From Nitrospira sp. CG24E (GTDB lineage: Bacteria > Nitrospirota > Nitrospiria > Nitrospirales > Nitrospiraceae), in assembly GCA_002869895.2 (NCBI GenBank), contig NEWP02000008.1, positions 72,663 through 108,807 of the forward strand: 36,145 bases of DNA, read 5' to 3'. Below the pieces are notes generated by a model. That model worked only from the letters and a program-made list of their open reading frames with translations, was not told where the DNA came from and made no database searches. This document shows, piece after piece, positions 33,480 to 36,101 of the stretch (positions are counted from its first letter, which is position 1; each line of letters starts with the position of its first letter). A program made the position numbers and the translations under genes.

Positions 33480-34214
33480 ATGCCGGTCGGAACATTTACC
33501 GCACAGGTCGAGTCGATCGAAGATCTCACGCACGACGTGCGCCAGCTCGATCTGCGGTTGATCGAGCCGAAATCTATCGCCTTCAAGCCAGGCCAGTTCA
33601 TTTCGTTCGAGATGCCGCATCCGAAGACCGGTCATCTCGTGACGAGAGCCTATTCCATTGCCTCGCAACCAAGCCGATCGAACGTCGTGACGCTGCTCTT
33701 CAACCTGGTGCCAGGTGGGCCAGGCTCCGGTTTACTGTTTCACCTCACTGCAGGGGAGAAGACACATTTCAAAGGGCCGGCGGGAAGTTTCTATCTGCGA
33801 GAAGACCCAGGACGTGAATTGCTGTTCATCGCCAGCGGCACCGGCATCGCGCCGATCCGCTCTATGTTGCTGGCGAACGCGGAACGTTCCGATCCGAGAC
33901 CGGCGACCCTGTTTTGGGGACTGCGTAGCCAGCGGGATCTCTATTATCAGAAAGAGCTGGCTGATGTGACCAGGTTGACTCCAACATTCCAGGCCATCAC
34001 CACGTTGTCACGCCCCGAGCCAAGCTGGTCCGGCGAATCAGGCCGTGTTCTTCGGCTGATCGAGGAGCGAATTACGTCAGTCGAGAATCTCTCCGTCTAC
34101 CTCTGCGGGAACAGCGCCATGATCGCCGATGCGACAGCCTTGCTCCAGAAGAAAGGCCTCTGTCCCATCTATCGCGAAAAATACTACGACGACAAGGGGT
34201 CTCCGGAAGATTGA
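33480..34214 (+). CDS. Ferredoxin-NADP reductase-like FAD oxidoreductase
   Basis: 244 residues with the FNR-type two-domain fold. FAD domain: FKPGQFISFEMPHP and RAYSIASQP (RxYS at 56-59). NAD(P) domain: LLFIASGTGIAPIRSML (GTGIAP at 120-125), LFWGLRSQRDLYY, and VYLCGNSAMIADATALLQKKG..IYREKYYDD. No ferredoxin domain is fused, so the electron partner is separate. The ATG at 33480 has no strong ribosome site, with the dispersed repeat immediately upstream. Reduces or oxidises a ferredoxin or other carrier; the partner is unknown. Confidence 0.9.
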   Translation: MPVGTFTAQVESIEDLTHDVRQLDLRLIEPKSIAFKPGQFISFEMPHPKTGHLVTRAYSIASQPSRSNVVTLLFNLVPGGPGSGLLFHLTAGEKTHFKGPAGSFYLREDPGRELLFIASGTGIAPIRSMLLANAERSDPRPATLFWGLRSQRDLYYQKELADVTRLTPTFQAITTLSRPEPSWSGESGRVLRLIEERITSVENLSVYLCGNSAMIADATALLQKKGLCPIYREKYYDDKGSPED

Positions 34215-34221
34215 AGCAAGG

Positions 34222-34258
34222 GTAGCCTAGTCATCCTCTTGCTCGCGGAACGCGCACG
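34222..34258 (+). repeat. 5'-half copy of the palindromic element
   Basis: GGTAGCCTAGTCATCCTCTT followed by GCTCGCGGAACGCGCACG resembles the left arm and first loop box of the elements at 34272-34369 and 35201-35320, without a matching right arm. It lies just after the reductase stop. Confidence 0.55.
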
Positions 34259-34271
34259 CTCCGAAGGGGGC

Positions 34272-34369
34272 AAGGGAGTGGTCAGGTGCCCTTCTTGCTC
34301 GCAGAACGCGCACGGTGAAACTGTGCTCGTTCGATGCGCGCAGTCAAGGGCAACCTCGACCACTCCCTT
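34272..34369. repeat. Palindromic hairpin element, copy 1
   Basis: Left arm AAGGGAGTGGTC-AGG-TGCCCTT (34272-34293) pairs with 34346-34369, whose complement reads AAGGGAGTGGTCG-AGGT-TGCCCTT, leaving two bulges. The loop contains TGCTCGCAGAACGCGCAC and GTGCTCGTTCGATGCGCGCA boxes. Copy 2 at 35201-35320 has the same architecture and loop boxes but different arm sequences that still pair. Confidence 0.85.
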
Positions 34370-34484
34370 AGCAGATGTTTGGAGAAAGAGGGATCCGGCT
34401 CAACGTCCGCACGTAGACCAACATGCGTGTCCTTCCAAGAGAAGAAAAGCGAGCGAGCTTGGAGGGAACATTGAAGGTGAGTAT

Positions 34485-35204
34485 ATGTACCGGCTGAAAG
34501 ACAAAGTCGCGATTGTGACGGGGAGTAGCAGTGGCATTGGAAAGGCCATTGCTTTGCGGTTCGGGGCTGAGGGAGCGAAGGTTGTTGTTGCGGCCAGGCG
34601 AGTGGCGCTCTGCGAGCAGACCGTCTCACAGATCACGAAGAGCGGCGGGGAGGCCTGGGCGATTCAAACGGATGTGGCAGATGAACGGGCGGTCGAACGA
34701 TTGATTGACGAAACAGTGAAGCGGTATGGACGGCTGGATATTCTGGTGAACAATGCGGGAGTGATAGCCGGAGGGCGGTTAGCTGAGACGACAACGAAAG
34801 CATTCGATGAAGTGATGAATGTAAACTTGCGCGGCACGTTCTTCTGTTGCCGGGCCGGTTTTACACAGATGAAGAAGCAGGGCGGCGGGACCATCATTAA
34901 TATGTCGAGCGTTGCTGGTGTCCAGGCCTGGGCCGGCACGGGAACGTACAGCGCGTCGAAGCACGGCATCATGGCCTTGACGAAATCGCTGGCCGAGGAA
35001 GGCCGCCCGCATCACATTAAAGTGAGCGCCATCTGTCCAGGCGCTGTAGCCGACGATCTCGTCGATGCCTCGCCGGATGAAATTCTCCGGAGCGAGAAGA
35101 TCGACCCCTTCGACGTGGCTGAGACGGCGCTCTACCTGGCGACCCTGGGTAAGCACACCGTCGTGCATCAGGTCGTGATCGATCGGCTGGGAGCGGAGTG
35201 GTAG
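34485..35204 (+). CDS. Short-chain dehydrogenase/reductase (SDR)
   Basis: 239 residues. Cofactor motif VTGSSSGIGKA, DILVNNAGVIAGG, catalytic Ser in NMSSVAG, and YSASKHG (Tyr and Lys). GGAGGGAACAT and AAGGTGAG precede the ATG at 34485; a longer frame from 34239 runs through the repeat element and was rejected. The C-terminus lacks the usual IxVDGG end (VVIDRLGAEW instead), as in some 3-oxoacyl-reductase-like SDRs. It is flanked on both sides by the palindromic elements. Substrate unknown. Confidence 0.9.
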   Translation: MYRLKDKVAIVTGSSSGIGKAIALRFGAEGAKVVVAARRVALCEQTVSQITKSGGEAWAIQTDVADERAVERLIDETVKRYGRLDILVNNAGVIAGGRLAETTTKAFDEVMNVNLRGTFFCCRAGFTQMKKQGGGTIINMSSVAGVQAWAGTGTYSASKHGIMALTKSLAEEGRPHHIKVSAICPGAVADDLVDASPDEILRSEKIDPFDVAETALYLATLGKHTVVHQVVIDRLGAEW

Positions 35205-35320
35205 GTGGTCCGGGTGATCCTCCGTGCTCGCTGCCCGCGCACCCAAGCACAATTTAATTCTCAGGTTGAGGGCGGTGCTCGGTCAATGCCCGCAGTTGAG
35301 GATCAACCCAGACCACCTAC
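35201..35320. repeat. Palindromic hairpin element, copy 2
   Basis: Left arm GTAGGTGGTCCGGGTGATCC plus TC (35201-35222) pairs with 35298-35320 with one mismatch and one bulged base. The loop has TGCTCGCTGCCCGCGCAC and GTGCTCGGTCAATGCCCGCA boxes aligned to those of copy 1. It begins inside the SDR stop codon region, so the element abuts the gene. Confidence 0.85.
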
Positions 35321-35636
35321 CGGCTTGGGGGTGGAGGAGAAGCACGCTACTCTCAATAGGAAGTGATGAGGAAACTTGGAGGGAGTATGGGCAGATGTGT
35401 TTGCTGACAGCGCAGGCGGACTAATGGAATTTTCAAGTTAGCGAGGCACGCTTCACGAGATGCGTTTCTTGGTCCAGCATTTGCCATCAACGCGGCAGGA
35501 TGCTCAAAAGGGCTGTCAGCAAGGCCGCAGTGAGTGAAGCAGGCTGAGGTCGAGGTTAAAATTAAGCGTTGAACAGGTTTTTGTTAGCTCAACCTTAGCC
35601 TCAGCCTTAACCTTCCCCGTGCGCTGGAAGGATTTT
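35205..35636. other. Repeat-rich region between the SDR and GNAT genes
   Basis: No gene found. It holds palindromic element copy 2 (35201-35320) and a nested palindrome: outer arms GCAGGATGCTCAAAA (35495-) and TTTTTCAGCATCCTG (to 35649), inner arms GGCTGAGG...GAGGTT (35542-35559) and AACCTTAGCCTCAGCC (35591-35606). Confidence 0.7.
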
Positions 35637-35649
35637 TCAGCATCCTGTT
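35495..35649. repeat. Nested palindromic (MITE-like) element
   Basis: Outer arms at 35495-35511 and 35633-35649 are inverted copies of a short repeat seen elsewhere in the window. Inner arms at 35542-35559 and 35589-35606 pair imperfectly (GGCTGAGG with CCTCAGCC, AGGTT with AACCT). The right outer arm contains the stop codon of the GNAT gene. Confidence 0.75.
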
Positions 35650-36101
35650 CTACGATACTTGGCGAAGCAGATAAGATCCAAGTGGTCGTAGTGGTCGGGT
35701 AAAATTGTTTCCGCCTTGTAGCCGAGGCTCGTGAAGAGATGAATGTTCCGGGCCGTTTGTAACATGGTGCAGGCGTAGAACTTGTGGCTCTCGGTCGCAA
35801 CCCGCTCGATTTCCCGTATCAGGGCTTTTGCCGCTCCCTGACTTTGGTGGGTAGGGCTTACGGAGAGCAGTCGGATCACGCAGACTCCTGCCACGTTCCA
35901 GAATCGTACGGACCCAATCATCACGCCGCCCATCTCCGCTACGAAGATGTGTTTTTCCTTGGCATCTTCCTTCAGGCTGTCGAGCGTCTCCGTCGTCCAG
36001 CCGCTGACTTTGTAGACGGCAGCATATTCCCCGAAGGCAGCCTGTTGAACCTGCAGGATGGCTGGGAAGTCAGCTTCGGTGGCGGGTCTGATGTGAATCA
36101 T
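35637..36101 (-). CDS. GNAT-family N-acetyltransferase
   Basis: 154 residues with the GNAT fold: MIHIRPATEADFPAILQV (strand 1/helix 1), HIFVAEMGGVMIGSVRFW (strands 2-3), motif A LLSVSPTHQSQGAAKALI (acetyl-CoA pyrophosphate loop QSQGAA) and a C-terminal LFTSLGYKAETILPDHYDH. The final residues RTGC and the stop codon lie within a copy of the dispersed repeat, so the 3' end may have been altered by the repeat's insertion. No convincing ribosome site was seen; the ATG is the start of the conserved fold. Acceptor unknown. Confidence 0.9.
   Translation of the reverse strand: MIHIRPATEADFPAILQVQQAAFGEYAAVYKVSGWTTETLDSLKEDAKEKHIFVAEMGGVMIGSVRFWNVAGVCVIRLLSVSPTHQSQGAAKALIREIERVATESHKFYACTMLQTARNIHLFTSLGYKAETILPDHYDHLDLICFAKYRRTGC

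Follow-up and report, generated by a model that had tools for sequence, protein, structure and literature searches.

The window analysed here, a stretch of 36,145 nucleotides from the genome of Nitrospira sp. CG24E, contains an SDR-family dehydrogenase gene with a hairpin-forming sequence on each side. A preliminary description, made from the letters alone, proposed that these hairpins are homologous, that their arms have changed in a compensatory manner so as to differ in sequence while still pairing, and that they might represent a structural RNA, a REP-like mobile element, or a protein-binding hairpin. The question raised by this locus is which of these the element is, how widely it occurs, and why it lies where it does.

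The hairpins of the window

Both hairpins are present at the positions first assigned to them (Table 1), and both fold far below shuffled sequences. On the plus strand the RNA fold of copy 1 reaches -65.4 kcal/mol (z -9.7) and that of copy 2 reaches -58.9 kcal/mol (z -6.5), with no shuffle as low in either case; the z-scores for the minus strand are -8.8 and -8.1, respectively. The loop boxes said to be common to the two were found in both copies, as was the CAACC of the right arm, which includes the usual one- or two-base bulge. With the covariance model described below, copy 1 scores 92.8 bits, which places it in the top three among the scored candidates of its own genome, and copy 2 scores 57.7 bits; a further copy of the long-loop type lies at C1:129127. 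The third piece, initially described as a 5'-half copy, belongs to a related element, of which it forms the left half; the place of the loop has been taken by copy 1, so that this element is interrupted. The core-to-core spacing of 54-59 bp that separates this half from copy 1 was seen again at nine other loci, and both outer halves are visible in the nested examples L041, L168, L034, and L169.

Table 1. Elements and neighboring genes in the window (positions refer to the first letter of the window as 1).
Feature	Position	Strand	Basis
FAD/NAD-binding oxidoreductase gene, upstream, co-directional	33480..34214	+	Pfam PF00970, PF00175
Interrupted element, left half (core TGCTCGCGGAACGCGCAC, 34240-34257)	34222..34258	+	core match, spacing
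Copy 1, complete element, type A	34272..34369	+	fold, covariance-model match, related copies
Copy 1, left arm	34272-34295
Copy 1, core left box	34296-34313
Copy 1, apical loop
Copy 1, core right box	to ~34344
Copy 1, right arm	to 34369
SDR-family dehydrogenase gene, flanked by copies 1 and 2	34485..35204	+	Pfam PF00106
Copy 2, complete element, long-loop type (~23 nt of extra loop)	35201..35320	+	fold, covariance-model match

That the elements flank the SDR gene is correct in so far as there is one on each side; they do not, however, simply bracket it, as each is located at the 3' end of a gene. The half element starts 7 nt after the stop of the oxidoreductase gene, and the TAG stop codon of the SDR gene (35202-35204) sits within the left arm of copy 2. 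The SDR protein has 17 close relatives in Nitrospira-type genomes, with 72-90% identity. Positions 35507-35662 of the window are taken up by a different palindromic repeat, GCAGGATGCTCAAAA...TTTTTCAGCATCCTG, which contains an inverted repeat of the CTCAACCT type and apparently belongs to another family; similar letters are found in L326 and L325, and this palindrome seems to recur behind genes of related genomes.

Structure and covariation

The repeat unit of about 100 bases forms one imperfect hairpin. Its base is made by an outer arm, about 24 bp long and asymmetrically bulged; a 2x3 internal loop and a core follow upwards. In the core TGC-T-CGC(A/G)-GAACG-C-GCAC pairs with GTGC-T-CGTTC-GA-(T/C)GCG-C-GCA, and its sequence is near-invariant (TGCTCGC..GAACGCGCAC..GTGCTCGTTC-GA-TGCGCGCAGT). 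Two T·C mismatches are placed either side of a GA bulge, and the resulting two-fold pseudo-symmetry means that each side has one TGCTCG and one CGCGCA. Mismatches and bulge are kept across copies and across genera, and the 18 invariant columns in an alignment of 42 copies all fall within the core. The apical loop is short in type A, the core of type B reads TGCTCGCGCAACGCGCGGCCTC.GAAGGCCCTCGTTGGACGCGCGCAGT, and the long-loop type includes copy 2. Behind many type B hairpins there is a further conserved sequence, a tail some 30 nt long, GAAGAGATAACGAGCRAGCTTGGARGGANCAT (for example L040 6732-6858 and L032 2262-2388), and a stretch resembling it lies upstream of the SDR gene at 34446-34480. The tail may belong to the mobile unit or serve in ribosome binding.

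The outer arms are hypervariable in sequence and yet paired, the left being rich in purine and the right in pyrimidine; in copies with paired arms the pairing is maintained for about 24 positions outward from the core, beyond which it drops. The direct count across the 42 copies gave 157 pair cells in which both sides had changed, compared with 50.6 +/- 8.3 for shuffles; sliding the structure by one to three columns left at most 54. Double changes occurred in 17 of the 28 pairs counted and in all 10 arm pairs. The median arm alignment score was 26.5 for cognate arms, i.e., those of the same copy, and 7 for arms of unrelated copies (the arm comparison was also made in an earlier version with duplex energies). 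The arm covariation originally remarked upon in the window is thus no coincidence between two sequences, and the pairing exceeds chance by far.

Copy number and distribution

A search of the own genome (G000) with covariance model R1, built from the 42 copies, identified at least 131 copies; as this comes from scoring the best 150 of 1727 candidates, the number is roughly a lower bound, and the concern that there might be no further copies can be set aside. Searching the same genome with copy 1 as a plain DNA query gave 46 matches, a few of which are the same copies on the other strand, and about 40 of these are related sequences elsewhere in the genome with 81-95% identity over all or part of the element. 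All 32 genus-level genomes, the own included, were positive, with from 14 to at least 150 copies each and some 100 or more in many of them, the fewest among near-complete genomes being those of two small genomes of 1.7-1.8 Mb. In a class-wide sample, in which the best 24 candidates per genome were scored, the same family contributed at least 124 genomes, of which 115 had matches and nine are listed without one, and among the sampled genomes of other families only four had matches, one to four each. The element is thus practically confined to the Nitrospiraceae within the sampled class. Four members of the family, G095, G101, G110, and G178 (1.7-4.5 Mb; G178 92% complete, the other three at least 98%), had no element match, and these element-free genomes are useful in a co-occurrence hunt for the mobilizing enzyme.

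No Rfam 15 covariance model matched the element at the gathering threshold, nor at E<=1. A search of the open literature, with most subscription papers outside its scope, found no earlier description in Nitrospira. RepRanger gives REP counts for N. moscoviensis, and the available part of that source describes no such family.

Empty sites and nesting

Relatives of the SDR locus carry both occupied and empty sites. Upstream of the SDR gene L054, L056, and L058 have a short spacer and no element, L052 and L053 hold type B elements or remnants of them, and L057 holds a remnant; in L052 the upstream gene takes its final codons and its stop from an element arm. Further empty sites were found in G015, the closest relative of G000. 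At q4 (L045) the element is present in G000 and missing in G015, as it is at q8, where in G000 it lies between a nuoD-like and a nuoE-like gene (named by eye from their translated ends), and at q9 (L299) the last codons of the gene have been replaced and the G015 gene is without the element.

The elements are also nested in each other. Type A was found within the loop of type B at about nine loci, always at CCGAAGG, and the half copy of the window is an example of this sort. Type B units beginning AGAGG-GGGATGGAGCC are repeatedly nested in another core, just after GGAAC or near it (L324, L349, L353, L361, L015, L024, and L028). A search for long elements with a gene between matching half hairpins gave only nested copies and apparent pairings of neighbors. 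Where constant terminal inverted repeats and target-site duplications were looked for, the element ends proved variable and the insertion junctions with respect to relatives were obscured by divergence. Presence, absence, and nesting are direct observations; that the copies are mobile we infer from this distribution, as no mobilizing enzyme was found which would tie mobility to a gene.

Element loops also contain foreign repeats, such as runs of the TCTGGTT/CCAGACAGACCAG type in L053 (2791 region) and L362 (165-388), and in L370 (357-522) a palindrome of the CTCAACCT type inserted in the loop. These three cases suggest that insertions favor the apical loop.

Turnover at orthologous stops

For five genes which have an element after the stop in G000, the 3' ends were compared in up to 14 further congeners. 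The orthologous stops are mostly occupied, and in the same direction, in 11 out of 11 cases at q1 (partial copies counted) and in eight out of nine at q7; with halves and degenerate copies included, most congeners also have an element at q2, q3, and q5. The arms of these orthologous copies have either diverged with pairing kept, as in GCCTTC/GAAGGC in L366 versus GACTTC/GAAGTC in L367, or are of another subfamily, or are hybrids of two subfamilies with mismatched halves (L319, L357, and L360). The distinct changes observed amount to 15 pair-preserving double changes, 19 single changes to A·C, and five single changes to G·U.

These changes bear on a mutational origin of the covariation. Hairpin arms are classical substrates for template switching, and such switching within a palindrome (quasipalindrome correction) would keep the arms complementary, in a way that is also compatible with a mobile element. 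The high share of double changes at orthologous sites, 15 against 24 single ones, is in line with this explanation. Template switching should, however, also erase the irregularities of the core, yet its T·C mismatches and its GA bulge are preserved, and the hybrids with their mismatched arms persist. As the explanation of the covariation we regard it as possible, if on the unlikely side; correction of this type may contribute to the pattern and leaves the preserved mismatches unexplained.

Placement at stop codons and the possible folded strand

Of 77 cases in G000 with a co-directional upstream gene, 28 have the outer base of the left arm between -16 and +12 nt from that gene's stop; the figures are eight of 19 for other congeners and 18 of 25 for G134, a genome of another genus. 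When the upstream gene is on the opposite strand, the corresponding counts are 0/24, 0/14, and 0/7, which makes 54 co-directional cases versus none, and on the downstream side only four convergent stops are as close. It should be noted that these counts come from a simple home-made gene caller based on codon usage, which loses genes at contig ends; the observed contrast between co-directional and opposite-strand genes is too large to hang on such details. Among the stops adjoining elements TAG is over-represented (25/56 versus 44/177, p 0.007). Pairing of the arms continues through the stop codon in L158, L226, L242, L251, and L168, which led us to consider that the right arm might have been copied from the end of the host gene. 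Targeting could account for the directional bias itself, as could selection for an effect at the 3' end.

Tested as an intrinsic terminator, the element showed no T run after the stem, the right arms being followed by purine-rich sequence. An ordinary intrinsic terminator, GGCCACCGGAAACGGTGGCC + T5, was seen downstream of one gene, behind the element in L045 and also in the element-free L325 and L328. This terminator is retained whether or not a species has the element, so that the role of terminator at that gene does not belong to the element.

Selection on the structure of the sense RNA predicts that G·U should exceed A·C among the mismatches. Over all copies there were 61 G·U and 199 A·C; with the most conservative clustering there were 45 and 70, in which A·C does not exceed the composition baseline of about 40:60; and private changes gave 7-13 and 13-20. 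As G·U was never in excess, selection on a sense RNA structure is not supported, and it is only this absence of a G·U excess that we claim. The strong A·C excess (199:61) is put down largely to subfamily founder effects and composition. A preference for the strand opposite to the mRNA is suggested. In the complete genome G134, where GC skew puts the origin at about 3.9 Mb and the terminus at about 1.55 Mb, 41 of 57 copies run along the leading strand versus about 59% of the coding sequence. Four more complete genomes have the same tendency, which is individually significant in only one of the five (G134), and this replichore bias partly follows gene orientation.

An alternative which takes its evidence from these same placements is a 3'-UTR RNA element, in which an mRNA hairpin after the stop would protect the transcript or slow terminating ribosomes. 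Location at the stop and along the gene would fit, as would persistence at orthologous stops with compensatory changes, and the nearest precedent is that of the REPs near stop codons of E. coli, for which ribosome stalling has been reported at distances of up to 15 nt from the stop (PMC12306157). The G·U excess that it predicts appeared in none of the counts, and in the closest relative the genes concerned (q4, q8, and q9) are without the element, in one case inside the apparent nuoD-nuoE pair. We therefore consider a role as 3'-UTR RNA doubtful, and of the three readings initially offered the structural RNA, taken as sense transcript, is the one that the mismatch spectrum does not support.

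Relation to known systems

That the element forms a family-wide set of DNA sites recognized by structure, with an attC-like logic and an unknown recombinase, their insertion and exchange being stop-codon-specific and directed along transcription with the anti-mRNA strand folded, appears improbable to us.

We rate as very improbable a bona fide REP or REPIN mobilized by a RAYT (Y1 HuH) transposase. Palindromy, copy number, and location at 3' ends are REP-like, the excess of TAG stops recalls the GTAG REPs reported to provide the TAG stop of flanking ORFs (PMC3733652), and three Y1 genes are present in the own genome. Against this, no Y1 (PF01797) match was found in the near-complete genomes G025, G026, G027, and G018, which carry 90-118 copies of the element, and 28 Y1 loci contained only two element matches, which is not above genome density, with no flanking by the element. 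These two results make a RAYT unlikely, and the early suggestion to look for a RAYT gene thus ended in a negative answer. In addition, no fixed GTAG, GGAG, or CGTC tetramer tags the hairpin base in 91 distinct arms; GGAG does occur in 43 of the 91, at variable position in the purine-rich arm.

Sites of the attC type, belonging to an integron or a related tyrosine recombinase system, share with the element the imperfect hairpin with extrahelical and mismatched bases, an arm structure more conserved than its sequence, and the position directly after the stop and along the gene, and a folded strand opposite to the mRNA would be a weak hint in the same direction; this identity is nevertheless highly unlikely, given that an integron integrase scored above the cut-off in only two of the 32 genus-level genomes (none in the other 30), that copies are dispersed across many contigs, often singly and behind genes that read like housekeeping genes, with no cassette arrays seen, and that conservation is found in the central core and not at the outer ends, which are variable and lack RYYYAAC/GTTRRRY (the inner box GTTGGAC of type B fits GTTRRRY and has no partner). 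The true integron integrases (463-464 bits) are those of G014 (L373), where the locus holds two elements, and of G007 (L374), where it holds none.

Compared with REP/BIME and REPIN sequences, the element is likewise a high-copy intergenic palindrome 3' of genes, sometimes over the stop codon, and mosaic and nested. Their units, however, are of 20-40 nt, in contrast to one imperfect hairpin of about 100 nt here, and they have the GTAG/GGAG/CGTC tag and the link to a RAYT, whereas the Nitrospira element has neither; its outer arms are hypervariable and still paired, and its orientation to the gene is strongly biased. ERIC is an enterobacterial palindrome of 127 bp and, as is generally known of it and of BOX, RUP, and NEMIS, these are imperfect palindromes of about 100-130 bp with a conserved central core which are intergenic, non-autonomous, and take insertions. 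The Nitrospira element differs from what is known of them in its core sequence, in adjoining stop codons, and in being directional. Its short length, non-autonomy, palindromy, and conserved central core, together with the empty sites in relatives, are features it shares with ERIC- and MITE-like elements.

Discussion

By its working principle the element is closest to the miniature palindromes of the REP/ERIC type, and it lacks the tag and the RAYT linkage of REPs as well as the distinguishing features of attC. Our preferred reading, which we hold to be probable, is a non-autonomous, Nitrospiraceae-specific mobile palindrome of the REP/ERIC type whose core is read as a folded DNA hairpin and which undergoes insertion, exchange, and loss at the 3' ends of genes. 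We have filed it as a new Nitrospiraceae-specific variant among the bacterial interspersed palindromic repeats. Of the options in the preliminary description the REP-like mobile element fits best, with more than 100 dispersed copies, empty sites, and nesting, and the conserved core with its fixed mismatches suggests that the protein-binding hairpin also has a part in the answer.

The mechanism that we propose for this mobile palindrome would have the core, with its stem, two T·C mismatches, and GA bulge, serve as a protein recognition site in a folded single strand of DNA. A mobilizing enzyme would act on this core, possibly on the strand opposite to the mRNA. The outer arms would need pairing alone, so that their sequence could drift while their complementarity stayed. 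Copies would be inserted into, exchanged at, and lost from the 3' ends of genes, the favored site being just after the stop and along that gene. We infer that the position at the end of genes reflects either targeting or selection, and long-term retention at one stop codon could indicate a host function.

Nitrospira are major nitrifiers, and many of their genes have these repeats behind them. The family separates, over many genera, what a protein presumably reads (the fixed core and its mismatches) from what merely pairs (the arms), which makes it a test case for distinguishing selection on structure from template-switch correction and from selfish spread. That the elements are placed so precisely and directionally at stop codons without a RAYT points to an unknown mobilizing system.
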